Positions 5,800 to 35,428 of a stretch of 38,250 bases of DNA are shown here, one piece after another (position 1 is the stretch's first letter; each line of letters opens with the position of its first letter). The stretch is from the NCBI GenBank assembly GCA_945860955.1, contig CAMATH010000081.1, positions 1 through 38,250 of the forward strand. The letters run 5' to 3'. Made by a program: the position numbers and the translations under genes. The notes beneath the pieces are model-generated. The model made no database searches. It saw only the letters and a list, made by a program, of their open reading frames with translations, and was not told the origin of the DNA. This DNA comes from Planctomicrobium piriforme (GTDB lineage: Bacteria; Planctomycetota; Planctomycetia; Planctomycetales; Planctomycetaceae).

Positions 5800-7503
5800 T
5801 CACGCGAGTTCTTCGATCAGATCACCGCGACGAAATGTCGCCGAGAGTCGCTGCAGTGAGATTTTCTGGCCGCCGTAGAGTTTCTTGAGGGCCGCGTCGA
5901 CATCGATGACGGCCTGGTCAAAGTACGTTTCGGACTTCGCATTCCAGAGTGCGTTCGCGGCGTCGAAGTCTCTGTGATTGAGCTCTTCCATCGTGATGTT
6001 GAGATCGGTGAGCAGGTGCTTTCCCATGCGCATCGCCAGAAAGCACGATCCATACGCGACGAAGTCGGGTGTGTTCGTCGGTGGGCGTCGTCGCTTGTTT
6101 TCCGCGAACCTGTAGATTAATGCCGCTATGATGACCTGGGCTGCGTTGAGAGTGGGGGAAAAGATCAGGTCGTAGAGTTTCCCGAAATGCTCCCGGCTCT
6201 GGAACTTCGCTTGGTGCGGTCGTTGTCGCCAGACAGACAAGATCGCTTCGGCCGCCGTCGCACTGCTGATGTCGTTCGATTTGAGAACGCCCCCCGCGCG
6301 GTGCCGATGGTACCTGTAGCCGAGCGCCCCGATCGCCGTTTCGAGGCTGACCTGCGCCGGGTCGTTGGATTTCAGGTCTCGCAGATCAACCGGGTTCTGA
6401 CTGTTCGTGGCGTAGGTGATGCTATGCACCAGTGGGTCGGAACCGGTCGGAAGCTCGTACACTCGAACAAGAACAAACGCCTTCTCGAGACTTGCTTCCA
6501 GTTCGGCTAGAAAAGGGCGCAATCGTGGCTGGCGTGCCTCATTGGCTAAGGTCTGTTGAATTGTCTTGCAGGTCTGTCCCCCGTTGATCACCTGCAACCC
6601 GTCGACGCGAACCTGGAAATTATCGGACTGCAGCGCGTTGTAGGCGAATTTGTGGCAGACAATCGTGATGCCGTTGTTGTAGAAGTAGAACTGTGGACTC
6701 TCTTTGTGATTTGACAGTGTTGCGGAAATTGCCTGGTTGACTCGATTTCCCGACAAACCCAGAAATCGGCGGACGTTGCGTTCCAGTAACAGGTCGCCAT
6801 GGCGGTTGAACAGTTCAGCAACCTCCCGCACAGGCATCTTTCCCACGAGCACCCTGCAATAGTCGAAGTCTTCGACAATCGCCTTTCCGGCCAGTCGCAA
6901 GGTGTCGTTGACCGGCTTGACCGCTTGCAATAGACGAACAACGTCGTCGTGATTTGCATACTCCCAACTCACTTGATTTTTGGGAAACCCCGACCGATCG
7001 ATCACCTCTTGCGCGACGTCGTTCCATTTCACGCCGTTGTTGCACAGAATCACGCGGACACCCGGAATCAATCCGTCTCGAACGAGAGAGCGGATCTCTT
7101 CCATCCGCCTGGCGAGGGCCGGATTCACCGTCAGCACGGAATTCGGATCAAACAGGTAACGAACGGCCTGAACCATCTTTTCAATTCCCGATTGAGGAAA
7201 GCCACTTTCGCCTGATAGATCGTGTTTGTATTTCCCCTGAAAGAGCGTGACGATGAATTCACCGTCTTCGACGTCGCTGAGATGAATCGCATCGATTCCA
7301 AAATCATTGCCCCCCTCGGTCAAGCATTCGAGGGCGTCTTCGCGGGGCAAGAACAGCGTCGTCTGCACGACAAGAAGCACGAACGCGACGGACCGCAGCT
7401 TATTCTCGTCGTTCTTGAGATTCAGTCGAGCGGCGAACTCCGGCGCAAGGTCTTCCGCCAGTTTTCGCACCCGCTGGTCGATGATGCCGAGATTGATGCT
7501 CAT
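5800..7503 (-). CDS. AIPR family (abortive infection phage resistance) protein
   Basis: This 567-residue protein has the AIPR core in its middle: FYFYNNGITIVC, then QVINGGQTCKTIQ, and the ATNSQNPVDLRDLKSND stretch. Its N-terminal part looks like a restriction-endonuclease fold: GGNDFGIDAI (Asp71) followed by FQGKY (Gln89-x-Lys91), the usual D...QxK spacing of a PD-(D/E)xK-type nuclease site. The family is linked to abortive infection, and an N-terminal nuclease would fit DNA or RNA cleavage after phage detection. That activity is inferred. The start ATG at 7503 sits at the natural N-terminus. The gene stands alone on its strand. On one side is a convergent TRAFs-binding protease, on the other RAYT and toxin-antitoxin debris, typical of a defence-rich accessory spot. 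Confidence 0.88.
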   Translation of the reverse strand: MSINLGIIDQRVRKLAEDLAPEFAARLNLKNDENKLRSVAFVLLVVQTTLFLPREDALECLTEGGNDFGIDAIHLSDVEDGEFIVTLFQGKYKHDLSGESGFPQSGIEKMVQAVRYLFDPNSVLTVNPALARRMEEIRSLVRDGLIPGVRVILCNNGVKWNDVAQEVIDRSGFPKNQVSWEYANHDDVVRLLQAVKPVNDTLRLAGKAIVEDFDYCRVLVGKMPVREVAELFNRHGDLLLERNVRRFLGLSGNRVNQAISATLSNHKESPQFYFYNNGITIVCHKFAYNALQSDNFQVRVDGLQVINGGQTCKTIQQTLANEARQPRLRPFLAELEASLEKAFVLVRVYELPTGSDPLVHSITYATNSQNPVDLRDLKSNDPAQVSLETAIGALGYRYHRHRAGGVLKSNDISSATAAEAILSVWRQRPHQAKFQSREHFGKLYDLIFSPTLNAAQVIIAALIYRFAENKRRRPPTNTPDFVAYGSCFLAMRMGKHLLTDLNITMEELNHRDFDAANALWNAKSETYFDQAVIDVDAALKKLYGGQKISLQRLSATFRRGDLIEELA

Positions 7504-12254: not shown

Positions 12255-12668
12255 TCGCTGTATCCTGGTAGCTTTCAGAGGTGAACAACGGGTTTCTGAG
12301 GCGGCAGGTCCTTCGATCGACCGTGCAACGCAGTCCATTGTAGTCGGGGGCAAAAAGGGGGACAGAGCGCGTTCTTGACTTGGAAACTCGCGTCGGCTCC
12401 CCTGCGAGGATGCCACGGACCGCTCGAGCCACTTGTTGGCGGGACGGTCTATCACGCTTTGAATCGCGGGAACCGCCGCGAGGCGGTGTTCCACAAGCCG
12501 GCGGGATTCTACGCCTTTGTGACGGCAATGAACGACGCCCAGCGTCGGGTTTCGGTCGATCTCTTTGGCACGACGAGATCATCGCCATTCCGGCACGATC
12601 GGGCACGTGTAGCAGGGAGGATTCAAGGCGTTTCCATTGCAGGACGACGATCACCGGGCCACCGTGGG

Positions 12669-12765
12669 AGCTGTCGGTTTTGTAGCGACGACGCTCTGCG
12701 GCGTCGCTCCGGTTGTGGTTCCAGCGAAGCGGAACCACAGCCGGCTGTGGCAAACACGCGGCCGG
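12669..12765 (+). repeat. REP-like hairpin unit, copy 3
   Basis: Three palindromes in a row: GCGACGACGC-TCTGC-GGCGTCGC, TGTGGTTCC-AGCGAAGC-GGAACCACA, and CCACAGCCGGCTGTGG, then CAAACACGCG. It sits inside element A where the RAYT codons for the RYVERNP region should be. Confidence 0.75.
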
Positions 12766-12874
12766 ATCGTCTATACCTCGCACGGTCGGAAACGAGACGA
12801 TTTCGCGGCTCCATCAAAATGTCTCAACGCGGACCACGCAGGGTATAGCCTGCAAGCGGGCCATTCATTTTTTT

Positions 12875-13018
12875 GCAGGATGAAAGGGATGAAGAGGATG
12901 GACACGAATTGCTGAAGCGACCTTCGATCGTGTGGATTGGGAATGTTTCGATTTCAAGCACTCATTCCGAGAGCAGGAATGGCGAGCAATTTCATCCCTT
13001 TCATCCTCTTCATCCTGT
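12875..13018. repeat. Inverted AGGATGAA-type microrepeat
   Basis: GCAGGATGAAAGGGATGAAG then AGGATGGACA (from 12877) is mirrored by CATCCCTTTCATCCTCTTCA then TCCTG (to about 13018). The arms enclose about 90 bases with CATTCCGAGAGCAGGAATG, so the transcript could form a long hairpin. The same arrangement occurs in element B at 20645-20820. Confidence 0.6.
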
Positions 13019-13483
13019 CAAATTCTTTCCGTCGGTCGTACGCACTCTCAGAGCCGCTCAACCACATTCTGAACCCGAGTCGGAGGGGTGGATGAATCAG
13101 GTCTTGGGCAAGCCAGATGGCCGCCGGTGCATGGAACGCGAATCGTCTGATTGTGCGCCGTGCGGAGTATCGTGTGACAGTCTCCCTGTCCGGCTGCTTG
13201 TCCGCTGATGACCCGCTGCTCTGGCGTGGCACGCCGGTGCCGCGAGGTGCCGCGTGGTGGGAGCGTGTCAACGAGCCGCTCTCCATCGGCGACTTGCAGC
13301 GATTGCGTCGTTCGGTGCTCCGTGGTCGGCCGTTCGGCAACGACGACTGGACGCGTCCTGCCGCTCAGGGTTTGGGACCGGAATCCTGTTTGCGACCGTC
13401 GGGAAGACCGTAGAAGTCTTGAAACTCACTCTGCCCCCTCTTTTCTGTGGCGCTGTTCCGCGGAGGTCGGTCGCCGCCATGGG

Positions 13484-13589: not shown

Positions 13590-14309
13590 TCAGCGGCGCC
13601 GCTCCGCCCGCATCTGGAGCAGATCGACCGCCAAAGAGAACGCCATGGCGAAGTAGACGTAGCCTTTGGGGATCTTCTGGTGAAACCCCTCCGCGACCAG
13701 CAAAGTGCCGATCAAGAGCAGAAACGAAAGCGCCAGAATCTTGATCGCCGGATGTCGCTCGATGAAATCGACGATCGCCTTGGAAAAGACCAGCATGACG
13801 GCCACGGATATAAAAATTGCGGCCAGCATGATCGGCAGGGGATTCTCCAAACCTTCGGTCATTCCGACCGCCGTGATCACCGAGTCAAGCGAAAAGACCA
13901 CGTCGACCATCAGAATCTGGGCCAGAACGCCGTTTAGCGAGAGACCGGGACTTGCGGAAGCGGCGTCGGGGTTGGAATGTTCGGTCTTGCGGTGAATCTC
14001 ATAAGTCGCCTTGAACAGTAGAAACAAGCCCCCCAGGATGAGAATCAGGTCCTTGCCGGAGAACGGCGTCTCCAAGACCGTGAACCAGGGCTCGTTCAGT
14101 CGCATCACCCAGCCGATCGCCAGCACGAGGATCGCCCGGGAAACGACGGCGAGCAACAGCCCCAACTGCCGCGCTTTGTCTCGCTGGTCGACGGGGAGCT
14201 TCCCCGCGAGAATCGCGATGAAGACCACGTTGTCGATTCCGAGCACGACCTCCAGCGATGTCAGGGTCAGCAGGGCGGCCAGCGACTCGGGAGTGAAGAA
14301 CTCTGCCAT
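13590..14309 (-). CDS. TerC family integral membrane protein
   Basis: The 239-residue protein has about seven hydrophobic segments and the two family motifs with intramembrane acids: EVVLGIDNVVFIAIL near residue 20 and VDVVFSLDSVITAVGM near residue 135. Family members export or handle metal ions such as manganese, or contribute to tellurite resistance; the substrate here is not predictable. The longer open frame (to 14669) has no hydrophobic or family sequence before the ATG at 14309, so that start is chosen. It lies 149 bases downstream of the CsrA-receiver gene on the same strand and could share its transcript. Confidence 0.92.
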   Translation of the reverse strand: MAEFFTPESLAALLTLTSLEVVLGIDNVVFIAILAGKLPVDQRDKARQLGLLLAVVSRAILVLAIGWVMRLNEPWFTVLETPFSGKDLILILGGLFLLFKATYEIHRKTEHSNPDAASASPGLSLNGVLAQILMVDVVFSLDSVITAVGMTEGLENPLPIMLAAIFISVAVMLVFSKAIVDFIERHPAIKILALSFLLLIGTLLVAEGFHQKIPKGYVYFAMAFSLAVDLLQMRAERRR

Positions 14310-14458
14310 TTCGCGACTTTCAGAGGATGGAAAAGGCACGCCGACTTGAACACACCGGCTGCGTTCGAAAATTGGCCCGCAGGTGGCCCCGTCCCTGGGG
14401 CGTTCTTCACCCGGCTCGATCCCTGAGGGGTCCGGTACGAATTCCCGCGGCGGTTCAA

Positions 14459-15220
14459 TCAGACTTTCACGCCCGAGACCGAAATGCTGCCGCAGATTGC
14501 ATCCCAGAGCGTGCGCGGATTGAGTGGCTTCGAATACCAGCCGTCGATCCCCCCCGGCCCGGTCGCAACCCCCAGATCCTGCGGGGGTGTACCGCTGACG
14601 CAGAAGACTTTGAGGTCGGCGAGCCGCGGTTGCGACCGAATCGCCCGCAGGGTCGAGGGACCGTCGCACCGCGGCATCATCATGTCGAGCAGCACGACGT
14701 CGGGTCGCTCGTGCGAGGCGAGATAATCGAGCGCCTCAATCCCGTCAGCGGCGGTTGCGCAGTCGCAGCCGTTCATCCCCAGCAGGCCGGCCAGCAGTTC
14801 CCGCTCATTCGGGTCGTCTTCGACCAGCAGAGCCCGGGCCGGTCGGTCGCCGCGCTTTTCCGGACCTCCCTGAACAAGGGCTCCGACGGCGTCGCGGTCG
14901 AGCGCTTCCAGACCACTGAAGACTCTGGCCAGGGTTTCGTCGGCCGCGGCGAGCATTCCGGCCTCTCGCTGCTTCTGGAACAGGTGCAGCCCCAGCGAGA
15001 TCTTGCTGAGACGGTTGCAAATCTCGTGGGTGCCAGAGCGGGTCGCCGCTGACTGCGGACGAACACCGGACTTCTCTAGTTCTTGTCGAAGTACGACAAG
15101 CTCGGGAGGTGCGTCGATTCCGATGCGTACGACATTCCCCTTGATACGCAGCAGGTGGACCGTAAGACCGATCGCGGGGAAGACAATCTTCTCGTCGACG
15201 CGGCGGGACAGAACAAGCAT
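14459..15220 (-). CDS. CsrA RNA-binding domain fused to H-box helical segment and receiver domain
   Basis: Residues 1-50 are CsrA: MLVLSRRVDEKIVF, IKGNVVRIGIDAP and Arg45 in VVLRQE, with Arg6 and Arg45 at the positions that contact RNA in Escherichia coli CsrA (Arg6, Arg44). Residues 62-115 form two predicted helices, the first carrying THEICNRLSKISLGL, an H-E-x-x-N-x-L pattern like the H-box of histidine kinases. Residues 127-245 are a receiver: LLVEDD, phosphoacceptor Asp in VVLLDMMMP, Ser in CVSGT and Lys in SKPL. CsrA is normally about 60-70 residues alone. The fusion suggests phosphorylation-controlled mRNA binding. A GGAG ribosome binding site lies seven bases before the ATG. The hybrid kinase gene ends 140 bases upstream. 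Confidence 0.92.
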   Translation of the reverse strand: MLVLSRRVDEKIVFPAIGLTVHLLRIKGNVVRIGIDAPPELVVLRQELEKSGVRPQSAATRSGTHEICNRLSKISLGLHLFQKQREAGMLAAADETLARVFSGLEALDRDAVGALVQGGPEKRGDRPARALLVEDDPNERELLAGLLGMNGCDCATAADGIEALDYLASHERPDVVLLDMMMPRCDGPSTLRAIRSQPRLADLKVFCVSGTPPQDLGVATGPGGIDGWYSKPLNPRTLWDAICGSISVSGVKV

Positions 15221-15360: not shown

Positions 15361-18300
15361 TCATCTTCCCCCCTCTGCTGAAAGTGCGTGAGCCTGCAGC
15401 AGCACATTGAGTTCGCGGGGGTGGAACGGCTTGGTGATGTGTTCATCGAACCCCGCCTCGAACGCAGCCTCGCGATCACCAGGTCGGCCGTATCCGGTGA
15501 GTGCGATCAGACGCATCCGGTCGGCCCACCCGGCCCGGATTTTGCGTGCCAGTTCGTAACCGCTCAATCCCGGAATGCCGATGTCGACCAGCGCCACATC
15601 GGGCAGTGGAGCCCGCTGGAGAAAATCAAGGGCCGCGTCCCCGTTGTCAGCCGTCGTCACCTGGTGCCCGTCCAGTGTCAGAATCGCACGGAGCGATTCC
15701 CGAATGTCGGGATCATCCTCGACCACGAGGACTCGCCGCGGCCGCGTGAATCCAATCGGCGTCGGTTCGGTCGGCCGTGTTGGCGGACCGTTCGGCCAAG
15801 GCTGGGGGGCGGCTCTTGCCTGCGGGAGCCAGATCACGAATTCGCTGCCCCGCCCTGGGCCGTCGCTGAGCGCCGACACGCGTCCGTTGTGCAGCTCGAC
15901 GATCGCCCGAACCAGCGTCAGGCCGACTCCCATTCCGCCGTTCGAACGGTCCAGAGTCTCGTCCGCCTGTACGAACAGATCAAACGCCTGAGCGAGCAGC
16001 TCCGGGGTCATGCCGACCCCGGTGTCCCGGACCCGGACGACCGCCTCGGATCCCTCGGCCCCCAGGGAGTACCAGACCTCACCCCCCTCGGGGGTATATT
16101 TCGCCGCGTTCATCAACAGATTGACCTGAATCTGTTGCAGCCGGGCGGGATCCCCTAGAACCATCAACGGACCGGCGGGACGGTCGACGGTCAGCCTCAG
16201 CCCCCGTTCAACAAACGCCGGACCCACTTCCTCCAGAACGTCTCCCACCGTGGCGCCGAAGTCAAACACCGACTTGCGTACCTCGATCTTTCCCTGGGCG
16301 ATCCGGGCCACGTCGAGCAGATCGTCCAGCAGTCGGGCCATGTGTCCCGTTCGCCGCTCGATGATCGGAAACCATTCCTGTGCCTGCAGCGATTCCGGAC
16401 CGGCCCGCGCGATGACCGCGGTCGCGTTCACGACGGCGGCGAGCGGGTTTCGCAACTCGTGCGACAAGACCGCCAGAAACCGGTCCCGCTGAGCGACCGC
16501 CTCGCGCGCGTCGCATTCGGCCTGTTTGAGTTGCGTGACGTCGGTCCGCACCCCTCCCAGTCCGGTCATCTCGCCCGCCGAATTCCGGATGGGGAACATG
16601 ATCGACAAATAGGTGTGCGGTCCATCCGGCTGGGGGATGACCACTTCGGACTCAACCGGAGCCTGTTGTTCGAGCACGGCGGCGTCGAGTGCGACCAGGG
16701 TTTCCGCCACGTCGGCCGGGAACAGGTCGTGAGCCCTCTTTCCCACCGGATCGCACCCGACCAGCTTTCGGAACGCCTCATTCGCCAGAACGTAATGTCC
16801 CGTGAGATCCTTGATGAGCACACAGTTCGGCGAGTTTCGCAGGATGCCGGCGAGTTGGTCGTCTTTTCGCCGGGTATCGGCTTCGGCCTGCTTTACGCGC
16901 CCAATGTCGATGAGGGTCAGAACGACACCGTTGATGGACAGTCCCGCGCGGTACGGCAAGACCCGCAGCAGCGACCAGTTCCCTCGACGATCCCGCACCT
17001 GCCGCTCGATGGGATTCCCGTCGGCGAGGACCGCGCTCAGGTCCTCAAGCAGATTGGGGTGGTCGATCGTGTGCGTGAAATGGTCGATCCGGCGTCCGAC
17101 GTCGTGGGGCAGAAGATGAAAAGTGTCGGCGACCTTGGGTGTGAATTTTCGCACGCACAGGTCGCGGTCGAGGAAGATCGTATGAATCTCGGTGCTGGCG
17201 AGCAGATTCTCCATGTCGGACGAAAGTTCGGTCAGCTCTTCGATCTTCTTCTGGTACTCGCCATTCACCGTGTACAGCTCTTCGTTGACCGAGTGCAGCT
17301 CCTCGTTCGTGCTTTGGAGTTCTTCGTTCGACGCGGTCAGTTCTTCGTTCGTCGCCTGCAACTCTTCGTTACTCGTCTCCAGTTCTTCAATGGTCGCCTG
17401 CAGACTCTCCCGGGCCGACCGCAGTTCCGCCTCGAGCGCCAGCAGGTGTTCGTGAGACGCCTCTCCCAGGTCGATTTCGCGGGCCGCCGCCGACAAGATC
17501 GGCCCCCCGTTCTCCGTCAATGTGATCAGTGCGTACGAGTCGTTCGAGCGCTTCGAACGCAGCGGTTTGACCCGGACGTCAATCACACGATCCCCTTCCG
17601 GCAGACGGACCGGCAAGCCCTTGAAGGTCACGGGAGTCGATTCGCACAGCGCCCGGGGAATGGCTCCCGCCAGCACCGGTCGGAGTTCCGGGCGGATCGC
17701 GTCGAGCAGGTCAGCCGAAAACCAGCCGTCGCGAACGTCGAAAAAGCGGCTTGCGCCGGCGAACGTTCGCACGACCTGGCGACGATCGTTCACCAGCAGG
17801 CTCGGGGTCAGGCACTCGTCAAGCAACATGTCAAGAACGGCGGCCATCGGCGCATCGGAGGGCGCGGCCGACGCGCCTGCGGAACGGGTGCCGGCTCCCC
17901 CCAACGGATTCGCCGCGATCGGTGCGGGAAGCCGCACATCCGTCGGCAGTCGCACGTCCCGCCGTTTTCGGTAGAACTTCCAGCGAGCGTTGATCGTGTC
18001 GAACTCGTCGGCAATTTCCCCGGGGCTCTCGCTTGGTCCCAGAAACAGCACCCCGCCAGTCTTCAGTCCGAAGTGAAACAGCGACAACACTTTTTTCTGG
18101 GCGGGCTGCAGAAAGTAAATCAGCAGATTTCGACAGACAATCAGGTCGAGTCGGGTGAACGGCGCGTCCTTCAGTAGATTGTGCTGCGCGAAGACCACCT
18201 GCTTGCGCAGCTCGGGCGAAACCTGGAAGGCGTCCCCTCGGGGAACAAAAAACCTGTGCAGGCGGTCGGGGGGCATTGCGGCGACGCATTCCGCCGAGTA

Positions 18301-19419
18301 CAGGCCGACGCCGGCGATGTCGAGCGAGGCCCGGTGCGCATCGGTCGCGAAGATCTTCACCGCGACGTTTCGCGGAAGTTCGTCGAGACACTCCTGGACG
18401 ATCATCGCGATTGAATACGCTTCTTCCCCCGTGGCGCACCCGGCAACCCAGACGCGGAAATCGTCGTCGCGCCCCAAAGCGCCAACCAGCCCCGGGATCA
18501 CTTCCCGCCGAAGCAGTTCAAACGCTTCCGGATCGCGAAAAAACCGGGTCACTCCAATCAGCAGATCCTTGTAGAGCCGGTTCACCTCGGCCGGATTCGC
18601 GATCAGTCGGTCGGCGTATTCGTCGACGCTCGGCACATTCAGCAAACCCAGCCGGCGCTCGATGCGCCGCCGCACCGTTTCGGGTTTATAAGAGGCGAAA
18701 TCGATTCCACTCGCGTCCCGCAACAGTCCGAAAATGGTGTCGAGTCCCGCGGGGAGAGGAGTGTCTGCCAGTCCATCCGGCGGTTCGCGATGTCCGGGGT
18801 GTTCGGCGTGTCGCAACAGGGCTGCGGGGATCTCTTCTGGAGCGAGTGCGAAGTCGACCGCTCCCGTCGCGACGGCACTTTTGGGCATGCCATCGAATTT
18901 CGCGGTTTCCGGTGCCTGCGCAACGACCAGTCCGCCGGCGGCGTGAACGTCTCGGATCCCGCGCGACCCGTCGCTGCCGGTGCCCGACAGAATCACCGCC
19001 ACCGCCCGCTCGCCGACATCCTGAGCGATCGACCGCAGAAACCTGTCGATCGGCAGGGCGACCGTCGGGGCGGGCTCTTTGTCGGTCAGCAGCAGCCTGC
19101 CGTCCGACAAGATCATGTCTTTCCTGGGGGGCAGCAGGTAGCACATGTCGGGTTCGACCGGCATCCCGTTTTCGGCCTGGCGAATCGGGATCGCGGTCCG
19201 TCGCGCCAGCAGGGTGTCGGTCAGGCTCTTGAAGTCGGGAGACAGATGCTGAATGACGACAAAGACCATTCCTGTATCCGCCGGCATTCGTTCGAAAAGT
19301 TTCTCCAACGCTTCGAGTCCGCCGGCCGACGCCCCGATCCCCACCACAAATGGCGGCGAGCTGACTCGGGGATTTGATCCGCCGTCGATCTCCTCTGGGT
19401 CGGCATCGTGATGGTTCAT
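15361..19419 (-). CDS. CheB-CheR-PAS hybrid histidine kinase with C-terminal receiver
   Basis: The 1352-residue cytoplasmic protein joins a methylesterase (about 24-205: [25 protein letters not shown] hold Ser, His and Asp), a methyltransferase (about 225-490: [13 protein letters not shown] and the SAM-binding [14 protein letters not shown]), a long coiled coil (about 655-755, repeated E-E-L-x-S/A-T/S-N-E-E-L), a PAS-like domain, a second PAS (about 880-995), a histidine kinase (phosphoacceptor in [10 protein letters not shown], ATPase motifs NAAKYT and VRDTGVGM) and a receiver (about 1235-1350, Asp in [10 protein letters not shown]). Such CheB/CheR fusions usually signal outside classical chemotaxis, and no chemoreceptor or CheA gene is nearby. 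The receiver-bearing CsrA protein directly downstream is the obvious candidate partner; that link is inferred. Confidence 0.93.
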
Positions 19420-20017: not shown

Positions 20018-20469
20018 GATCTGAATCTTTCTGGAGAGCGAGATCGTAAATCGGACATGTATCGGAACGTTGAATGCAATGCGATGGATCAATTCGTTTT
20101 TTGAAAGTGTATCCCGATAAAGCCGTCCCCCGGTAGGCGTTCGGCAGTGTTGCCAGATCGCGGAAATCGCCACGAGTAGTATTCCTTGAGCCGGCGAACT
20201 TCGACGCCTTTGTGGCGCCGATGAACGACGCCCTGCGTCGGGTTTCGTTCGATCTCCTTTGTCGATCTTTCCGGCAACTGCCTGATGCCAAGCCATTTCC
20301 ATTTCATGCTCAGGCCGCACAGTGATGGCGACCTGAGGCGTTGGATGCAGTGGCTGCTTGCAGCCCTTGCGCGACGAGATCATCGTCAACCCGGCACGAC
20401 CGGGCACGTGTGGCAGGGAAGATTCAAGGCGTTTCCGTTGCAGGATGACGAGCACCCAGCCACCGTGGG

Positions 20470-20530
20470 GGGCTGTCGGTTTTGTGGCGACGACGCTCCG
20501 CGGTGTCGCTCCGGCTGTGGCAAACACGGG
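20470..20530 (+). repeat. REP-like hairpin unit, copy 4 (middle hairpin deleted)
   Basis: GGCTGTCGGTTTTGTGGCGA, CGACGCTCCGCGGTGTCGCT, then CCGGCTGTGGCAAACACGG. Compared with copies 3 and 5 the segment between the two CCGGYTGTGG direct repeats is gone, consistent with a slip-type deletion. Confidence 0.65.
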
Positions 20531-20760
20531 ATCGGATCGGCTAGACCTCGCACGGTCGGAAACGAGACGATTTCGCGGCTCCATCAAAATGTTTGAACGC
20601 GGACCGCGCAGAGTATAGCCTGCAAGCGGGCCGTTCATTTTTTTGACAGGATGAAAGGAATGAAGAGGAGGGACAGGATTGCTGAAGCGACCTTCGATCA
20701 TGTGGATTGGGAATGTTTCGATTTCAAGCACTCATTCCGAGAGCAGGAATGGCGAGCAAT

Positions 20761-20814
20761 TCCATCCTGTTCATCCCTTTCATCCTGTTTATCCCTTTCA
20801 TCCTCTTCATCCTG
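20761..20814. repeat. 9-bp tandem repeat, six units
   Basis: Units TCCATCCTG, TTCATCCCT, TTCATCCTG, TTTATCCCT, TTCATCCTC and TTCATCCTG follow each other without gaps. The matching spacer in element A has only three units (12992-13018), so the array expanded or contracted after the copies separated. Confidence 0.8.
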
Positions 20815-21102
20815 TCAAATTCTTTCCGTCGGTCGTACGCACTCCCAGAGCCGCACAACCACATTCTGAACCCGAGTCAGAGCGGCGTGTGAATTGGGTC
20901 TCGGGCAAGCCAGATGGCCGCCGGTGCATGGAACGCGAATCGTCTGAATTTGCGCCGTGCGGAGTATCTTCATGATTTCCCCGGTAGGCTCGCTAGACCT
21001 GGGAGTTGAAGAGGTAATTTGCCTGAGGCGCCGCCCCGCACTTTGGGCCACCCACAACATCGCCAGACCTGCGCGTCAATCTGCTGGCGTCAAGGGAAGC
21101 GT

Positions 21103-21373: not shown

Positions 21374-24300
21374 TTAAACACTGGGTGGCCCCGATCTTTG
21401 TTCATTCGGGCTGCCGTTGACGGCGTCAAGCTGTGTCTGCATCGCCGCGGCGACGCGCTGAACCGTGGGTTCGCGGACGATTCCGTGGTGTTCACAGTGG
21501 GGAAATACAACGACTTGCACAGATTTGCACAGGACGCTCCAGCCGTAATCGAAAGCTCGAAATCGCCAGGGAGTCTGGCACAGAGCGCGAAACAGCGTCA
21601 CTGGTCCTGGATAGGGGCTCGGCTGATACGTCAGCCGAGCGATCCGGTACGAACGCTCCGTCTCCAGGATCGGCGTCGCCGGGGAGGCGGCGTCCGGCGC
21701 TCGGAACCGGGTCAGGAGTCCCGAGATTCGCCTCTTCAGCGACAGGAACGAGACGCGGTAGTTATTGTCCCGTGCCCAGTAGAACCAGTTGGCGAGGTAT
21801 GACGGAGCCAACCGGAGCCGACTCTCAAGTGACTGACGAACGCCGCGCGGCGAGTGATCGATGATTCCCAGAAATGCCACAGTCCGTCCCTTGATTTCGA
21901 GCTGCCGGGCTGTTTCGTAAGCGAACGCGCCGCCCGCCGAATAACCGGCGAGTCGAAACGCCCCGTTGGGTTGAAACTGGATCAACATCTCCGCGTAGTG
22001 GGCGGCAATCGTTTCGAAATCGCCGTATCGGAGTCCCAACTGCGGCGACTTGACGGGCCGAACGCCGATCAGTGGTTGATCGGGGGCGAGGTAGGGAACG
22101 AAGGCGCGCCAGAACATCACATACCCGCTCGCGGAATGCAGTACAAACAGCGGCGGTTTCGACCCGCCCGCTTGAATGGGGACCAGTTCGCAGAGGTCGC
22201 CCACTACGGTTCCACGCAGGAATTCCGCTTGCTGTTCAATGGTTGGCTGCTGCAGCAGCGCGTCGAGCGGCAGTTTCTTTCCCAAAACCTGCTCGATCCG
22301 CGCGACCAAACGAAGGGCCAGCAGCGAGTGTCCCCCCAGATCAAAGAAATTCTGCTGAACGCCAATGGTCTTGCGGTCCAGGATTTCGGCCCAGATGGCA
22401 ACCAGTGTCGCTTCCAGATCATCGCGTGGTTGCTCGCGGATCGGCGGCGACGGACTCTGAGACTCATCCGGCGCCGGCAGCGCCTCGCGGTCGAGCTTCC
22501 CGTTCCGCCCCAGGGGAAAATGCGAGAGCTGCATGAATACCGCGGGAACCATGTAGTCAGGCAGTCGCAACTTCAGTTCGCGGCGCACCGCGTCGAGGTC
22601 GATCTCTACTTCCGAGGCCGCGACCAGGTAGGCGATCAGCCGACGGCCAAGGGAACCTCCTTCATGCGCCACGACCACTGCCTGTTTCACGCTGGCCCGC
22701 TCGACCAGCAACGATTCGATCTCGGCGGGTTCGATGCGAAATCCACGAATTTTGATCTGCTGATCGATGCGGCCCAGGAATTCCAGCGTGCCGTTCGAGT
22801 TCCATCGCGCCCGGTCGCCGGTCCGGTACATTCTCGCACCGGGGGCGGCGTCGAATGGATCGGGGACGAACCGCTCGTTGGTTGATTCGGAATCGTTCCA
22901 ATAACCTCGCGCTAGGCCGCTCCCTGCCAGGTACAGCTCGCCCGCCCAACCGATCGGTGCCGGTTGACCGCCGCCGTCCAGCACATAAACCCGGGTGTTG
23001 GAGATCGGACGACCGATCGGAATCGAAACAGCGGCGTCATTCAACGGGCGTTCGATTGTGTGGCAGCACGCGAACGTCGTGCATTCAGTTGGTCCGTATC
23101 CGTTGATCAAGCGGACCTGGGGCGGCAAGACGCGCAGCGCTTCCTGAACATGGCGCACCGAAAGCGCCTCTCCCCCGGTGAGGATTTCTTGCACACCGCG
23201 CAGCGCCTCGGGCCGCTGTTCCATCAGACTGTTGAACAGACCTGCCGTGAGCCAAAGAGTAGTCACGTGATGATCGCACAACAGCCGCTCGAGTGTTCCA
23301 AAATCGGGAAGCGATTCCGGGGCCAGCACCAGTCGGCCGCCGTGCAGCAACGCCCCCCAGATCTCAAACGTCGATGCGTCGAACGCCGGGCTGGCAAGCT
23401 GCAAAAAGACCCGATCGGGCCCCAGCACGGCGTAATCGACGCCGAACACGAGCCGCGCGATTGACCGGTGCTCAACGGCCACCCCCTTGGGTTCGCCGGT
23501 CGAACCAGACGTCAGCATGACGTACGCCAGATCGCGTGACAAACCACACGACGTCGGATTCTCCGCCGACTGGTCGGCCCACGGCAACCGGTCGTGTTCG
23601 AAACTCAAGACAGTCAGTTCGGAAGGGTCCGGCAGGTCGGCGGATCCGCGGCCGCAGATCGCCCATTTCGCGCGCGTCGCCGCAAGCACTCGACGCAGAC
23701 GCGCGGGGGGCGATCGGAGATCCAGCGGAAGATACGCTCCTCCGGCCTTCAGCACGCCGAGCATTGCGACGATCAAATCGGACGATCGTTCGACGGCGAG
23801 CGCGACCAGCACATCCGAACCGACGCCACGGTCGCGCAGATAGTGGCCGAGACGGTTGGCCCGTTCATTCAATTCGCGGTAGGAATAACACTGCGAGCCG
23901 TCGATTAGCGCCACCGCATCGGGAGTCCGTTCAACCTGCCGCTCGAACAAATCTGGAATTCGCACCTCCTGCGGATAGTCGCGGGTGGTGTCGTTCCATT
24001 CCGACAACATTCGGGCGTCGTCGTCGGAGACGAGCGAAATCTGCTCGAGCGGGGCGTCGGGACTGGCGGCGACCGCTTCCAGCAGGCGCTCGAACGCCCG
24101 CACCAGGCGTTCGATCGTCGAGGGGTCGAACAGATCGGTTCGATAGGTGAACCTACCGCGCAACCCATCGGGATCGTCGACCAGCGACGCGACAAGGTCG
24201 AATTTCGCGCCGCCGTTGTGAATTGAAATCCGCTCGGCCTCGACTCCCTTCAACTGGAATTCGGACCGGGGGACGTTCTGCAACACGAACAGCACCTGCA

Positions 24301-27232
24301 CCAGCGGCGTCGGCCCCAGGTCGCGTTGCGAACCGAAATCGGCGACAAGTCGGTCGAATGGAACCTCGGAATGAGAGAACGCCCCGACCACCTCTTCGCA
24401 AACGTGGGTCAGCAAGGCCCGGAACGTCGGATGTCCCGAGAGATCAAACCGCAACGGCAGAGTGTTCACGAACAGTCCGACCAGGTTCTCGGTTTCCCGT
24501 CGCGTTCGGCCCGCGATCGGCGTTCCGAGAACGACGTCGCTCCCCGCGCCAAACCGGCTCAACACCAGGGCGAACGCCGCCGCCAGGGTCATGAACAGAG
24601 TGGCGCTCGAATCTCGCGCGAGCGCCGAGACAGCGCGGGACAGTTCCGCTGGAAATCGAAAGGAAACCCGCGCTCCCTCCCCCGCAGCCGAACGTGTTCG
24701 CGGTCGATCGCAATTCAACTCGATCTGGCCCGTGGCACCCCGCAGCTTCTCCCTCCAGTAGCCCACCTGAGACTCGAGAAGCTCGCCGCGGAGCATTTCG
24801 CGCTGCCAAGCGGCGAAGTCGGCGTACTGCACCGGCAGATCGGAAAAAACGTGCGAACGCCCCTCTGTTCTCGCGTTGTACGCTTCCGCCAGCTCGCGCG
24901 CGAGAATCCGGCTCGACCAGCCGTCGAACGCAATATGATGAACCACGATCGCCAGGACAGCCTCTTCGTCGCCAAGACGCACAAGGTCGGCCCGGAGCAA
25001 CCGGTCGCTGGAAAGATCAAACGGACGGCGCGCCCGTTCCGCGAGAAACCGCTCGACCCGGGAGAGGTCGGTCCTGTCGTCCCAGTCGATCACCGCCAAT
25101 TCCATCGGCCCCGGCTCGCCGATGATCTGCTCCACAACACCGTCGCGTTCCGCGAGCGTCGTTCGCAGAACTTCGTGTCGGTTGACGAGGTCGCTCAACG
25201 AATCCCGCAGCGCCGCGACGTCGACGCGGCCCGTCAAGCGCCAGGCCAGAATTTCGTTGTACGATCCGGAGAGCGCAGAGAGCTGATTCAGGAACCAGAG
25301 CCGCTGCTGTGCGAACGATGCGGGAAACGTCGCGCCGGCCGCGCGAGGAAGTCGGGGTATCGGCTGGATGAGGCGCGAAGGGGATGAATTCGACGGACCG
25401 GCCAGCGCCGCATCGATCGATTCCGCCTGCAGCGCCACGGTGCGCGCCTGAAACAACTCGCTCAGCGAAAGATCGACGCCAAACGTCTCCAGCATCCGGG
25501 AATGCACGAGCGCGGCCTTCAGTGAATCGCCGCCGACGTCGAAAAAATCGTCGTCGATCCCCACCACATCAACCGTCAGCACCTCGCACCAGATGCCCGC
25601 GATGGATTCCTCAGTCGCCGATCGCGGAGCCACGAGTTGGGTCGCGAGCGCGGGGCGCGACCGACCGGGCGCCGGCAACGCCTTGCGGTCGATCTTTCCG
25701 TTGGGCGTCATTGGCATGGCGTCGAGCAGCACGAACGTCGCGGGAATCATCGATTCGGGCAGTTGGCGGCGCAATGCGCCGGCCAGTTCTTCGACCGTGG
25801 GGGGGCGCGCCCCGACCGCCGCGACGACGTAGCCAACCAGTCGCTTTTCACCCGATTCGTCGTCGAGCGCGACGACCGCGGCGTCGCGGACCCCGACGAC
25901 CAGTCGCAACGCCCCCTCGACTTCTCCGGTTTCGATCCGCTGTCCGCGAATCTTGACCTGCGAATCCCTGCGGCCGACATGCACCAACACGTTGTTCGAT
26001 TCAAACCGTCCGAGATCGCCAGTGAGGTAGATTCGCTCGTCCCCCCCCGACGGATCGGGTCGGAACTTTGATTCCGTCAATTCGGCGTTGCGCCAGTAGC
26101 CCGGGGAGAGAAATCGGCTCTGAACGGCGATCTCGCCGACTTCACCGCGGGCCGCGGGGCGACCCTCTGAATCGAGCAGCAGCACCGACTTGTCCTGAAT
26201 CACCCCTCCGACCGGAGCGATGTTGCCTTGGAATGTTGTGGCGGAATCCAGGGCGAACTGCGCGATCGTGCCGGTTTCACTGGCGCCGTATTCATTCACC
26301 AGCAGGCAGTCGCCGCCGAACAACTGCTGAAAGAGTTCCACGTCCCGGCGGAACAGCGTCTCTCCGCGCAGGTTGATCAGCCGCAAGTCGGGAAACGACT
26401 GTCGCCGTCCCAAAGTCATTGCAAATTCGCGAAACACACTGGGAATCGCGTGGAGGACGGTGACGCCTTCGCTCTTCAGCCACCCGGCGAGATCGGAGAG
26501 CCCCCGTTCCTTCAAATTCCAGGGAAGGGAACTGGCGCCGTTGAGCAGAGAACGAAACTGACTCGACGACGTTCCAATCGACGCGACGCGATCTCCGGGG
26601 CCGATCCCCAGTCGACGACCGGCGAGGGCCCGATGCAGCAGATAGCGATGTGTATGGACGACCCCCTTGGGGTTTCCCGTCGAGCCCGAGGTGTAGGTCA
26701 GACTCGCGGGCCGGTCTGGGGCGTCGGCGGAAACGGGCAAAATGCGCCCGGCGCGCCGCGGCGCACTGTCGACGTTGAGAACCTTCGCATCCGACTCGAC
26801 AAGCTCCCGCGCCGCCCTCCATCGCGCCCCGTCAGTGACCAAGAATTGCGCCTGCGAGTCATCGAGCAGAAACCGCGTGCGGGCCGAGGGATGCGAGGGC
26901 TTCAAGACCACAAAGAATCCGCCGGCGCGCAGCACCCCCAGAATCGCGGCCGACAACTTCGGTCCTTGATCGAGAAACAGGGCGATCGGCCGCGTGGCGA
27001 GTGGATCTCGGTTGAGAATCGCCCGGGCGATCTCGTCCGCCAGTTCATTCAGTTCGGCATAACTGATCCGTTGCCGCGGCGTCTGAATGGCGGTTTGACT
27101 CGAGACAAAGCGGGCCACCTGGTCGAAATGCCAGGCGACGTCTCCTTCCGCCGCAGCGGGATCGTACAACAGAAAACCGCGCGCAGCGACGCTTCGACGA
27201 TCGAACGCCAGTTGCGGCAAGAGTGCGTCCAC
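21374..27232 (-). CDS. Two-module NRPS: A-T-C-A-T-TE
   Basis: The 1952-residue synthetase starts at GTG 27232 behind GGGAG, 26 bases after the GT2 gene. Order: adenylation A1 (about 30-520, YTSGSTGNPKG, NGKIDRKALP), carrier T1 (Ser about 567 in GGDSLK), condensation C (about 640-1070, active HHIAFDG about 765), A2 (about 1085-1590, LTSGSTGEPKG, INGYGPTE, NGKLDREALP), carrier T2 (Ser about 1633 in GGHSLL) and thioesterase (Ser about 1764 in GYSAGG, late His in HCEHHG). Aligned to PheA, A2 gives DAFWLGGTFK, one residue from the known valine code DAFWIGGTFK. A1 has no Asp at position 235 and an odd pocket, so its substrate may not be an ordinary alpha-amino acid. No starter C and no epimerase domain. 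A released two-unit product is inferred. Confidence 0.95.
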   Translation of the reverse strand: MDALLPQLAFDRRSVAARGFLLYDPAAAEGDVAWHFDQVARFVSSQTAIQTPRQRISYAELNELADEIARAILNRDPLATRPIALFLDQGPKLSAAILGVLRAGGFFVVLKPSHPSARTRFLLDDSQAQFLVTDGARWRAARELVESDAKVLNVDSAPRRAGRILPVSADAPDRPASLTYTSGSTGNPKGVVHTHRYLLHRALAGRRLGIGPGDRVASIGTSSSQFRSLLNGASSLPWNLKERGLSDLAGWLKSEGVTVLHAIPSVFREFAMTLGRRQSFPDLRLINLRGETLFRRDVELFQQLFGGDCLLVNEYGASETGTIAQFALDSATTFQGNIAPVGGVIQDKSVLLLDSEGRPAARGEVGEIAVQSRFLSPGYWRNAELTESKFRPDPSGGDERIYLTGDLGRFESNNVLVHVGRRDSQVKIRGQRIETGEVEGALRLVVGVRDAAVVALDDESGEKRLVGYVVAAVGARPPTVEELAGALRRQLPESMIPATFVLLDAMPMTPNGKIDRKALPAPGRSRPALATQLVAPRSATEESIAGIWCEVLTVDVVGIDDDFFDVGGDSLKAALVHSRMLETFGVDLSLSELFQARTVALQAESIDAALAGPSNSSPSRLIQPIPRLPRAAGATFPASFAQQRLWFLNQLSALSGSYNEILAWRLTGRVDVAALRDSLSDLVNRHEVLRTTLAERDGVVEQIIGEPGPMELAVIDWDDRTDLSRVERFLAERARRPFDLSSDRLLRADLVRLGDEEAVLAIVVHHIAFDGWSSRILARELAEAYNARTEGRSHVFSDLPVQYADFAAWQREMLRGELLESQVGYWREKLRGATGQIELNCDRPRTRSAAGEGARVSFRFPAELSRAVSALARDSSATLFMTLAAAFALVLSRFGAGSDVVLGTPIAGRTRRETENLVGLFVNTLPLRFDLSGHPTFRALLTHVCEEVVGAFSHSEVPFDRLVADFGSQRDLGPTPLVQVLFVLQNVPRSEFQLKGVEAERISIHNGGAKFDLVASLVDDPDGLRGRFTYRTDLFDPSTIERLVRAFERLLEAVAASPDAPLEQISLVSDDDARMLSEWNDTTRDYPQEVRIPDLFERQVERTPDAVALIDGSQCYSYRELNERANRLGHYLRDRGVGSDVLVALAVERSSDLIVAMLGVLKAGGAYLPLDLRSPPARLRRVLAATRAKWAICGRGSADLPDPSELTVLSFEHDRLPWADQSAENPTSCGLSRDLAYVMLTSGSTGEPKGVAVEHRSIARLVFGVDYAVLGPDRVFLQLASPAFDASTFEIWGALLHGGRLVLAPESLPDFGTLERLLCDHHVTTLWLTAGLFNSLMEQRPEALRGVQEILTGGEALSVRHVQEALRVLPPQVRLINGYGPTECTTFACCHTIERPLNDAAVSIPIGRPISNTRVYVLDGGGQPAPIGWAGELYLAGSGLARGYWNDSESTNERFVPDPFDAAPGARMYRTGDRARWNSNGTLEFLGRIDQQIKIRGFRIEPAEIESLLVERASVKQAVVVAHEGGSLGRRLIAYLVAASEVEIDLDAVRRELKLRLPDYMVPAVFMQLSHFPLGRNGKLDREALPAPDESQSPSPPIREQPRDDLEATLVAIWAEILDRKTIGVQQNFFDLGGHSLLALRLVARIEQVLGKKLPLDALLQQPTIEQQAEFLRGTVVGDLCELVPIQAGGSKPPLFVLHSASGYVMFWRAFVPYLAPDQPLIGVRPVKSPQLGLRYGDFETIAAHYAEMLIQFQPNGAFRLAGYSAGGAFAYETARQLEIKGRTVAFLGIIDHSPRGVRQSLESRLRLAPSYLANWFYWARDNNYRVSFLSLKRRISGLLTRFRAPDAASPATPILETERSYRIARLTYQPSPYPGPVTLFRALCQTPWRFRAFDYGWSVLCKSVQVVVFPHCEHHGIVREPTVQRVAAAMQTQLDAVNGSPNEQRSGPPSV

Positions 27233-27258
27233 GAACAGACTCCCGGCTCAACAGGGGG

Positions 27259-28308
27259 TTAAACTCGAAAACGACGTCCCATCGCCTCGGGACTGATGTG
27301 CGTCAACAGACCCCCGGCGGCGAAAAACGCGTAGTAACAGGAGATGATTGTCAGCACCGCGGGAACCTGCCAGAACTTGACTCCCACGTCGGACGCATGG
27401 CGAAAGGTCCTGGCGAAACCGCGGCACATTCGCTTCCCGGCGATCCAGAAACTTCGGCCCAGACAATAGAGCGTCCGGCGTTCGGTGTGCTTCATGTAGT
27501 GGTCCCGCCCGTGTGCGAGCGCCCGAGTGGTCAAGTGTTGAAAGTTGGCCGGTGGAGGGTGCCCGACGCGGGCGCTGCGATTCTCCCAGATCGAGATTCC
27601 AAGCTGTTCCAGGTGCTTTCGCAACAGACTGCTGGCCCCCCGCGACCGCTTGCCCAGCGACGCGAATCCGGTCTGACGAAAGACCTCGGCGTGAAACACA
27701 ATGTTGTTCGCGTAGACTTTGACCGGTTGAATGAGGCGGCCGCGCGGGTCGCGCAGGTCATAGGTCCAGCCGAGCGAAAACGCGCTGGCGTAGAGACTGT
27801 CGGGGGGAATGTAGGTCTGCCCGCAGACGACCTGCATCGAGGGATCTGCAAAGGTTCCCAACAAATGGGCCAACCAGCCCGCTTCGGGCTCGACATCGCT
27901 GTCGACGAACAGAATCAGATTTCCGGTCGCGCGCTCGGCACCGAAATTCTTGAGACCGTAATACTCGAGACCAGGCGTCACATGGAGTTCCAGATCGAAG
28001 TCGGCGGGAACGCCCGATCGAATCTCCTTTTCGACACCGTCCTCAATCGGAGTGGCGGAAATGATCAGCACCTGGGCCGGCGTGACCAGACGATCGAGAT
28101 ACTGGATCGCTTCCGGGGAAAGCCCCTCGGGATATTCATGCCGCAGAAGTTGCCCCCACTGGCGTCCCAGCAACTCCAGCAGAATCTTGGCGCGGGGAGT
28201 CCCGTTCAACTCGGTATTCGCCCACTCAATGATGATGGACACCGCGACCTGACTGGCGGAGGACGCCGCCCGCGAGGCCGACGACTCGGGAATTGTGTTG
28301 GTCGACAT
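27259..28308 (-). CDS. GT2-type glycosyltransferase with C-terminal membrane segment
   Basis: The ATG at 28308 gives 349 residues. A GT-A-like nucleotide-sugar fold is indicated by VSIIIEWANTE at the N-terminus and LILFVDSDVEPEAGWL (DxD, about residue 135), followed by an acceptor-side region (YANNIVFHAEVF, SLGKRSRGASSLLRKH). One hydrophobic stretch near the end (VLTIISCYYAFFAAGG) suggests membrane attachment. Donor and acceptor cannot be named. It sits between another glycosyltransferase (17 bases upstream) and the NRPS (26 bases downstream), so a role in glycosylating the peptide or an intermediate is the simplest inference. The open frame upstream of this ATG overlaps the previous gene and is not used. 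Confidence 0.85.
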   Translation of the reverse strand: MSTNTIPESSASRAASSASQVAVSIIIEWANTELNGTPRAKILLELLGRQWGQLLRHEYPEGLSPEAIQYLDRLVTPAQVLIISATPIEDGVEKEIRSGVPADFDLELHVTPGLEYYGLKNFGAERATGNLILFVDSDVEPEAGWLAHLLGTFADPSMQVVCGQTYIPPDSLYASAFSLGWTYDLRDPRGRLIQPVKVYANNIVFHAEVFRQTGFASLGKRSRGASSLLRKHLEQLGISIWENRSARVGHPPPANFQHLTTRALAHGRDHYMKHTERRTLYCLGRSFWIAGKRMCRGFARTFRHASDVGVKFWQVPAVLTIISCYYAFFAAGGLLTHISPEAMGRRFRV

Positions 28309-28325
28309 CAACTGAACCTCAAACC

Positions 28326-29525
28326 TTACAGGGTATCCATCAACGTCAGAGTTTGTTCGGCCCCGTCCGGAGCGATCTCGTGGATGGGCCGCGGCCGCGA
28401 CAGTCCGGCCAGAATCAGTTCCGCCAGTTCTCCGGCCGTCGCCGTCTCGGGAGTGATAGCGTCGAACACTCCCCACTCGGCGAGGCGCCGAGCCCGCAAT
28501 GGCTGATCGTAGGTTCGGCGGTTGGGGGCGAGAATGCCCCGGGTGCGGGTTTCCAGCAGGTTCATTGTCGTATTGTACCCCCCCTGGCTGATCGACATGT
28601 CGGCCCCCGCCATCCACGGGAGAAACCCGTCGCTGAACCGCCGCAACTCAAACGCCCCCTCCTGGATCGAATTCTGCCCCTGAATCGAAATCTGAAGGGC
28701 GTCGAGCTGTCGCGGTTCGGCGAACAGACCGGTGAAGATCACCATCCGCCGCCCGGCGCGAGACGACGCGTCGATCTCCTTCCAGGCCGCGACGCAGAGG
28801 TTCGCGAGCCGATTTCCGTCCCGCAGTCCGCCGCTGCTGACCAAAACATAGCCCGGGGCCGCATCGTACTGGGGACCGCTTCCCTTTTCCGGGTCCGCGA
28901 GCTTCTCGGAGACGTATCCGGTGTAGTGAACGGGAATCGCGACCTGAGACATCCAGGGGAAAAGCGTCTCCAGTCGAACGACGCGGGGATCGGAATGAAC
29001 CAGGAGCAGGTCGAACATGGCGTTGAGCGTGGGGACGACCTCGTTTCGGAACTCGGCGGAGGCGGTCGAGGCTTCGTGTCCCGCGGGATAGTCGCGAACG
29101 GAACTCACGACCTTGACTCGCGAATTCGCCGACTTCGCCGCTTTGATCGCCGCGGTCAATTCGTCGCGCAACACCCATTTGCTGAACGGAAAATGCTCGA
29201 TCAACAGCAGGTCCGGGCTGAGTTCGCCCAGCAGCCTGTCCAGCACGAAACGGCGCTGACCGAAGACTTCCGCCAGGGTCTGGGAAGAGTCGAGCGGGGC
29301 CAGCCCCACGGCCGTCCGATGGATGGCCGGAAGTTGCACCAGGCTGACGGAGCCCGCGAGTTTTGGCCCGGGAACATCGCTCCCCCCGACCACGAACCAG
29401 ACGTCATGGCGGCGCGACAGCGCGCGCACGATCTCGCGACAGCGAACGTAATGACCCGCTCCGCTCAGGTGCTGACAATAGACCACAATTCGCTTGCGGC
29501 GGCCCGACTCAACCGGATTTGCCAT
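28326..29525 (-). CDS. GT-B glycosyltransferase (GT28/COG4671-like)
   Basis: This 399-residue protein starts with VVYCQHLSGAGHYVRCREI, the glycine-rich loop of GT-B enzymes that act near MurG/GT28, and has the C-terminal donor site WMAGADMSISQGGYNTTMNL typical of the COG4671 group of predicted glycosyltransferases. The middle holds VLVSSGGLRDG, the start of the second Rossmann domain. There is no signal peptide, so it acts in the cytoplasm. Its start overlaps the Rieske gene by 17 bases, a sign of coupled translation. Two unlike glycosyltransferases in one operon suggest two sugars or one sugar and a modified carrier. Confidence 0.85.
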   Translation of the reverse strand: MANPVESGRRKRIVVYCQHLSGAGHYVRCREIVRALSRRHDVWFVVGGSDVPGPKLAGSVSLVQLPAIHRTAVGLAPLDSSQTLAEVFGQRRFVLDRLLGELSPDLLLIEHFPFSKWVLRDELTAAIKAAKSANSRVKVVSSVRDYPAGHEASTASAEFRNEVVPTLNAMFDLLLVHSDPRVVRLETLFPWMSQVAIPVHYTGYVSEKLADPEKGSGPQYDAAPGYVLVSSGGLRDGNRLANLCVAAWKEIDASSRAGRRMVIFTGLFAEPRQLDALQISIQGQNSIQEGAFELRRFSDGFLPWMAGADMSISQGGYNTTMNLLETRTRGILAPNRRTYDQPLRARRLAEWGVFDAITPETATAGELAELILAGLSRPRPIHEIAPDGAEQTLTLMDTL

Positions 29526-30759: not shown

Positions 30760-30812
30760 GAGGAATTGACGGGCGTGCGTGTGAATCCGGTTCAGAATCG
30801 GCCGGACGCCGA

Positions 30813-32168: not shown

Positions 32169-32179
32169 TTGGTCGTCCG

Positions 32180-34222: not shown

Positions 34223-34223
34223 T

Positions 34224-35288: not shown

Positions 35289-35365
35289 GCGGTCTCAACC
35301 GCGTCGGACCGGGCGATTAACCGAACCGCCGCATTGCTCGGTCGACCGGCGACGCCCTGGCGCAT
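35260..35365 (-). other. Displaced 5' segment of the isopropylmalate-dehydrogenase-like gene
   Basis: From ATG 35365, behind GGGAG at 35378-35374 (eight-base spacing), the frame encodes MRQGVAGRPSNAAVRL and, later, ETACIGVFSGEG, the expected N-terminal strand and glycine loop of the dehydrogenase. It runs out of frame at a five-G run. It is the natural start of the downstream gene if one G is restored. Confidence 0.65.
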
Positions 35366-35428
35366 GATCTCGTCTCCCACGGCGGTTGGTTGCTCACAAT
35401 GACTTGGCGTAAGTAGAATCATTTTCCG

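Follow-up and report, generated by a model that had tools for sequence, protein, structure and literature searches.

A DHp-like H-box hairpin within a widespread planctomycete CsrA-receiver protein encoded beside hybrid histidine kinases

CsrA is a classic posttranscriptional regulator, best known for its control through titration by small RNAs (sRNAs). Phosphotransferases with a DHp fold are known from a different setting, the sporulation relay, in which Spo0B passes the phosphoryl group between the intermediate and the output receivers. ChpT takes the same role, with the same fold, in the CckA-ChpT-CtrA relay, as a passage of PMC9981736 describes. A sensor-kinase system that ends in altered CsrA activity is found in the BarA/GacS-UvrY/GacA-CsrB-CsrA pathway, according to PMC4682653. 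Finally, receiver and CsrA are joined in one chain in response regulators with a CsrA output: a passage of PMC2222644, which cites an earlier survey, names CsrA among the RNA-binding outputs of response regulators, while in a part of PMC1183210 the RNA-binding regulators were set aside. Since the class has thus been named, the fusion of CsrA to a receiver is not new, as the original prediction had already suspected.

The window analyzed here, a stretch of 38,250 nucleotides from Planctomicrobium piriforme (contig CAMATH010000081.1 of assembly GCA_945860955.1), encodes a protein, here called csrA-Hbox-REC, in which a hairpin with an H-box motif lies between the CsrA and the receiver domains. 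The gene and its parts are as follows, in coordinates of the window.

14459..15220, minus strand: csrA-Hbox-REC gene, stop codon included (ATG start, 253 aa; open reading frame listing)
15071..15220, minus strand: CsrA RNA-binding domain, residues 1-50 (Pfam PF02599, 50.5 bits against a cut-off of 27)
14867..15049, minus strand: DHp-like two-helix hairpin, residues 58-118 (AlphaFold2; HisKA/DHp homology)
15008..15028, minus strand: H-box core H65-E-I-C-N69-R-L71, with His65 as the proposed phospho-acceptor (conservation in 105 homologues)
14474..14845, minus strand: receiver domain, residues 126-249, with E134, D135, D179, S209, W228, and K231 (PF00072, fold comparison, residues)

The three parts that had been read from the DNA alone are all borne out. 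The claimed complete CsrA is covered by the PF02599 match, and the receiver, said to have all its key residues, gives a Response_reg match at residues 131-242 (65.7 bits against a cut-off of 30.2) and holds E134, D135, D179, S209, and K231. The claimed H-E-x-x-N-x-L helix with a second helix behind it corresponds to the H-box core and to the helices that AlphaFold2 places at residues 58-86 and 90-118. A Pfam search with this single sequence gave no match in the linker, and it found no HATPase_c domain in the protein, which is thus not a histidine kinase. In its own genome, where 11 CsrA matches lie above the cut-off, the window gene is the sole CsrA frame long enough to include a receiver, the other ten having 87 to 149 codons. 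Directly downstream, on the same strand, lies a gene for a TerC-family membrane protein (window 13590-14669), whose listed frame overlaps the csrA gene; its true start is probably closer to the TerC part.

Set beside the described systems, the locus differs from each of them. Unlike ChpT and Spo0B, it shows no ATPase-like domain and holds putative phosphotransferase, target receiver, and RNA-binding output in one chain. In the BarA/GacS pathway the regulator induces sRNAs that titrate CsrA, whereas here the putative phosphotransferase and the receiver are fused to CsrA, so that no sRNA step would be needed. As for the response regulators with a CsrA output, the passage of PMC2222644 mentions neither an internal H-box hairpin nor a pairing with hybrid kinases. 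Another genome of the phylum holds a protein of comparable layout (L128, 3350-5125), in which two HisKA matches without HATPase_c are followed by a receiver and an effector; there, in contrast, the effector is an adenylate/guanylate cyclase domain and HisKA matches above the curated cut-off. Among the papers listed in a search of open-access literature, none had a title or opening of the abstract that describes a CsrA protein with an internal H-box. Judged by its sequence record, the csrA-Hbox-REC architecture is real and widespread, and a prior description was not found within that scope.

A homologue at an E value of 1e-20 or better is present in 39 of 170 genomes of the same order, and 100 of 397 genomes drawn from the class match the profile at 1e-32 or below; a few of these matches are partial. 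Outside the class, all listed matches among 392 genomes drawn from the phylum begin no earlier than profile position 61 and so lack CsrA. Further family copies may be missed, since the number of candidates scored per genome was limited to 15 in the order search and to 6 in the class and phylum draws. A scan of genome contigs gave four receiver-only matches (L046-L049) and one close relative (L045), a Planctomycetota metagenome bin whose csrA-Hbox-REC protein is 98% identical to that of the window. The family set, drawn from 120 DNA stretches and the window, came to 125 proteins, 122 of them with CsrA, and to 124 and 121 once a duplicate (L123 19110, the same as L131) was dropped. The CsrA-only tables leave out three ORFs that have H-box and receiver but no in-frame CsrA (L126, L127, and L216); in L216 a CsrA frame overlaps the ORF, while those at L126:7899-8615 and L127:7878-8678 each have the H-x3-N motif and are matched by Pfam in the receiver only. 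In a further member (L124:7756-8523), with intact H-box and receiver, the CsrA part has Asp instead of the key Arg, and RNA binding may have been lost.

Conservation was counted in 105 CsrA-bearing homologues, less than 85% identical and unselected for the motif. His65 (kept in 91), Asn69 (88), and Leu71 (96, with Ile in another 4) are the three best-kept columns of the linker, followed by Gly88 (83), and position 68 is Arg in 72. By this measure the H-box motif is kept beyond chance, and the histidine, on whose conservation the original prediction depended, is indeed conserved among aligned homologues. The residue after the histidine is free (E in 23, A in 19, D in 19, Q in 13, G in 7, and R in 6, among others). 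In kinases an acidic residue at this place serves autophosphorylation; the free position, together with the kept Asn at +4, fits a phosphotransferase or a phosphatase and not an autokinase. In the receiver, D135 is kept in 104 of 105, D179 in all 105, and S/T209 and K231 in 103 each, so that all four stand in at least 103. Proteins of the CsrA/RsmA family recognize A(N)GGA sites in RNA; CsrA Arg45, which we take to be the RNA-contacting Arg44 of Escherichia coli CsrA, is kept in 101. An earlier alignment of 32 sequences, all matched by the CsrA profile, gave an unchanged picture.

A hairpin that acts as a cis phosphatase or docking platform, with the kinase phosphorylating the receiver directly and H-x3-N speeding or gating dephosphorylation, would also account for the asparagine, which is kept in 88 of 105 and stands where HisKA kinases, some of them bifunctional, have their phosphatase residue. 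In HisKA kinases, however, phosphatase activity is not strictly dependent on the histidine, which is kept here about as often as the asparagine (91 versus 88 of 105), and the pairing with hybrid kinases described below would be left unexplained. We consider this explanation rather unlikely, even when the first helix of the receiver is counted for it; this helix, the part of a receiver that contacts DHp domains in a passage of PMC9981736, has the well-conserved residues N, E, R, L, L, and A. It is likewise conceivable that the hairpin serves only to pair the chains and to hold CsrA at a distance from the receiver, and that its histidine is a relic of a kinase ancestor. This would agree with the remainder of the hairpin, kept as the hydrophobic and polar columns of two helices, with a clade in which H and N are gone but the linker is of similar length in most members, and with two members that have lost the linker hairpin entirely. 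One would not expect a relic, however, to have H, N, and L as the best-kept linker columns throughout the class, and the clade without H and N suggests that the linker can persist without them; we regard a mere spacer as unlikely.

The kinship of the hairpin was examined in 83 segments, among which the His and the Asn are invariant because the segments were picked for an intact motif. HisKA was the commonest Pfam family (27 of 83, best E value 4.1e-6), followed by TPR_19 (7); SPOB_a matched weakly in 5 of the 83, as a likeness to Spo0B. One full-length member (L208) matches HisKA at 3.3e-4, below the curated cut-off. Against a model built from 55 kinase DHps of the fetched loci, chosen by a HELRNP-like pattern, 61% of the 83 segments scored at least 5 bits, compared with 1.9% of 4150 shuffles, none of the 83 segments when reversed, and 10.5% of the 19 members whose H-box is broken. 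Since shuffles that keep the core reach this score in 28% of 4050 cases, against 61% of the segments, the likeness as scored comes in part from the H-box core itself and in part from beyond the core. In hhalign the hairpin aligned to the DHp at 97.3% over 47 columns, His on His and Asn on Asn, while a reversed profile gave 0.9% and 60 column shuffles at most 3.5%. In the window's own genome, the best nonself match of the hairpin (E value 1e-4) lies directly upstream of a HATPase_c, the place expected of a DHp, with an open frame of equal length given for both.

These comparisons indicate kinship between the hairpin and the DHp domain of kinases. The proposed likeness to the DHp hairpin of a kinase without its ATPase thus stands, with conservation, profile-profile homology, and the helical model in agreement. 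A DHp hairpin with a conserved histidine and no kinase ATPase in the chain is the makeup of a DHp-type phosphotransferase. Because the receiver directly follows the hairpin, and no degenerate ATPase-like domain was found after the DHp, the protein is not filed as a Spo0B or a ChpT, though it may work alike. An HPt identity was rejected: Hpt (PF01627) is not among the best 25 of 64 Pfam families, the last of which match a single segment each, so that at most 1 of the 83 segments can match it, and the hairpin has only two helices as opposed to a four-helix monomer.

In single-chain runs, AlphaFold2 modeled the full protein (32 sequences) with a mean pLDDT of 88 and a pTM of 0.62, and the hairpin alone (83 sequences), again as two helices, with a mean pLDDT of 91.6. 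The linker is accordingly predicted to be ordered, and the disorder that would have spoken against the original prediction was not found in the models. Averaged over ten residues, the pLDDT of the full model is 56 (residues 51-60), 79 (61-70, which include His65), 92 to 97 (71-100), 87 (101-110), and 63 (111-120); both models are less confident about the start of the first helix, where His65 lies (block means of 79 and 73 in the full and the hairpin model, respectively), and with its low pTM the full model does not fix the mutual placement of CsrA, hairpin, and receiver. The best 50 fold matches listed for the full model all cover the receiver part, the second to fifth being RR468 chains. Searched by itself, the hairpin found HK853 chains at Z scores of 7.2 (4jav_A) and 6.7 (6rh7_A), the latter with 58 residues on positions 252-309, where model residue 9 (His65) falls on 260 if the alignment is ungapped. 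Such Z scores of 6.7 to 7.2 are common among helical hairpins, generic two-helix hairpins head the list, and unrelated hairpins reach up to 8.3; the fold searches with the hairpin do not single out a DHp. Foldseek gave the hairpin no match reaching 0.001. Spo0B and ChpT are absent from the best 50 fold matches listed, an absence that is not informative, and neither a kinase nor Spo0B occurs among 28 solved-structure sequences from a profile search with the hairpin, the best of which (E value 0.0023) is a designed protein.

The neighboring gene, 140 bp upstream of the csrA-Hbox-REC gene and on the same strand, encodes a kinase whose single chain comprises HisKA, HATPase_c, and a C-terminal receiver; it is hence a hybrid kinase.

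15361..19419, minus strand: hybrid histidine kinase, 1352 aa, with CheB, CheR, PAS, PAS, HisKA, HATPase_c, and a C-terminal receiver (Pfam)
16291..16491, minus strand: HisKA of the kinase with HELRNPL, residues 977-1043 (Pfam; motif located)
15817..16155, minus strand: HATPase_c of the kinase (Pfam)
15403..15732, minus strand: C-terminal receiver of the kinase, the proposed second relay step (Pfam)

A sigma-70-like site in the 140-bp intergenic gap was discarded as being at chance level, with 1 found in the region and 1.1 expected. Across the family, pairing was counted for the 102 members that have CsrA and an intact H-box, close relatives included. Within 3 kb the nearest kinase is hybrid in 78 of the 102 and not scored as hybrid in 7, and there is none in 17; within 1.5 kb the counts are 73, 6, and 23. 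Five of the 17 members without a kinase within 3 kb lie within 1.5 kb of a sequence end, and the other 12 have at least 1.5 kb on both sides. In six of the seven nonhybrid cases (3 kb), a receiver is encoded near the kinase, while the seventh (L187) is cut by a contig end. Five of these six have a receiver frame between the kinase and the CsrA gene or overlapping them: in L178, L191, L195, and L196 its start coincides with the end of the kinase ATPase, and L081 has two receiver genes after the kinase. In L211, a receiver gene lies beside a kinase that bears an N-terminal receiver. For comparison, the window's own genome has 33 HATPase_c matches, of which only 11, by manual count, run on into a receiver in the same frame; it also has five Hpt matches, none of them in the window kinase.

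That the H-box might be phosphorylated in trans by the ATPase of the neighboring kinase, whose own receiver would go unused, is suggested by the DHp kinship of the hairpin and by the presence of a kinase within 3 kb in 85 of 102 loci. We hold it to be quite improbable, however: the acidic residue after the histidine is not kept, the window kinase has a HisKA of its own, and the preference for receiver-bearing kinases would be left unexplained.

We favor instead, as moderately probable, a two-protein His-Asp-His-Asp phosphorelay formed by the hybrid kinase and the csrA-Hbox-REC protein, with its last two steps on CsrA. The hybrid kinase would autophosphorylate its DHp histidine, and the phosphoryl group would move to the kinase's own C-terminal receiver. 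From there it would be taken by His65 of the CsrA-protein hairpin and handed to Asp179 of the receiver in the same chain. With no ATPase present, His65 cannot phosphorylate itself and has to obtain its phosphoryl group from a receiver or, in trans, from another kinase; and since the neighbor is a hybrid kinase that ends in a receiver, a four-step relay is likelier than simple transfer from kinase to receiver. CsrA is a dimer, and the hairpins of the two chains would therefore pair into a DHp-type four-helix bundle beside it. Phosphorylation of the receiver, or its docking on or release from the bundle, would then change the access of CsrA to RNA.

A comparison of 75 pairs of CsrA protein and kinase (73 with an intact H-box, close relatives not thinned) bears on the roles of the two receivers. 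Three positions before the conserved Lys, Trp stands in all 75 CsrA-protein receivers, while the kinase receivers have His (67) or Tyr (8); we infer that the Trp is the aromatic switch of the CsrA-protein receiver. Passages of PMC9981736 describe a relay receiver of a hybrid kinase without an allosteric response and output receivers that couple Ser/Thr to an aromatic residue, and state that many hybrid-kinase receivers fit no single profile. The differing switch residues are in line with an output receiver in the CsrA protein and a relay receiver in the kinase.

Members without an intact H-box allow a further comparison. Fourteen CsrA-bearing members have lost the histidine, and 5 more have kept it and lost the asparagine. 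Within 1.5 kb, the nearest kinase of the 14 is receiver-less in 8 and hybrid in 1 (L220, whose receiver has also lost its Ser/Thr), with no kinase in 5; for the 5 Asn-less members there is a hybrid kinase in 1 and none in 4. The association of H-box loss with a receiver-less kinase gives an uncorrected Fisher P value of 3.9e-7 with ancestry ignored. On the tree, 9 changes are needed, and one supported clade contains 11 of the 19 members that lack an intact H-box; tree-aware pairing leaves 2 starred independent pairs (4 on all branches), for which the sign test is not significant. Because so many of the losses form one clade and only 2 pairs are independent, the association is weak as statistics. 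H-box loss thus goes, suggestively, with a receiver-less kinase, in what is near to a single event, mainly in one clade and not exclusively.

Twin clusters, in which pairs of a CsrA-receiver gene and a CheB/CheR-kinase gene lie side by side, are found in 7 of the 9 loci examined (L123/L131, L190, L203, L204, L205, L207, and L210). In these, the H-box copy lies beside a hybrid kinase of 1342 to 1355 aa, and the copy without an H-box is nearest to a receiver-less kinase of 1085 to 1137 aa. No comparison is possible in L182, where the H-box-less copy lies beside a CheB/CheR frame without a kinase match, or in L212, where no kinase was found. A separate receiver gene adjoins the H-box-less copy in L123, L190, L204, and L205; some 0.7 kb away on its other side, L123 and L204 have a two-receiver hybrid kinase, and L205 has a kinase frame that bears a receiver. 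The rule that the absence of every receiver explains H-box loss was therefore rejected. The twin-cluster pattern is compatible with a relay.

For the relay we count the conservation of H65, N69, and L71 above all other linker columns while the residue after the histidine is free, the hybrid nearest kinase of 78 of 102 H-box members, the DHp kinship, the differing switch residues of the two receivers, and the twin clusters in 7 of 9 loci. Against it we count the 17 of 102 H-box members without a kinase within 3 kb, the fold searches that do not single out a DHp, the position of His65 in a less confident part of the model, and the other receivers near H-box-less copies.

Several other features of the window deserve a mention. 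A dispersed repeat of several hundred bases is present in three copies (12347-13171, 20179-20968, and 37544-38102) that are 82 to 93% identical in most parts. A protein of the AIPR family, which has a link to abortive phage resistance, is encoded at 5800-7503 (PF10592, 164.5 bits). Positions 21374-37478 hold, as read by eye, an apparent biosynthetic cluster with a 1952-aa ORF like a nonribosomal peptide synthetase and with ORFs like those for a glycosyltransferase, a Rieske protein, a radical-SAM protein, an aldehyde dehydrogenase, and an ABC transporter.

In conclusion, the fusion of a DHp-like hairpin and a receiver to CsrA probably lets the neighboring sensor kinase pass phosphate straight to an RNA-binding protein. 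Tentatively, and with little to choose between its being right or wrong, we extend this to the family: hybrid kinases would directly control an RNA-binding protein without regulatory sRNAs, and the H-box would be shed where the partner kinase is receiver-less. Relay and direct transfer could be compared naturally in the twin clusters, where copies with and without an H-box lie side by side. If true, a phosphorelay whose last steps take place within the CsrA protein would link sensing directly to the control of mRNA, and it would illustrate the reuse of kinase parts as modules for phosphotransfer.
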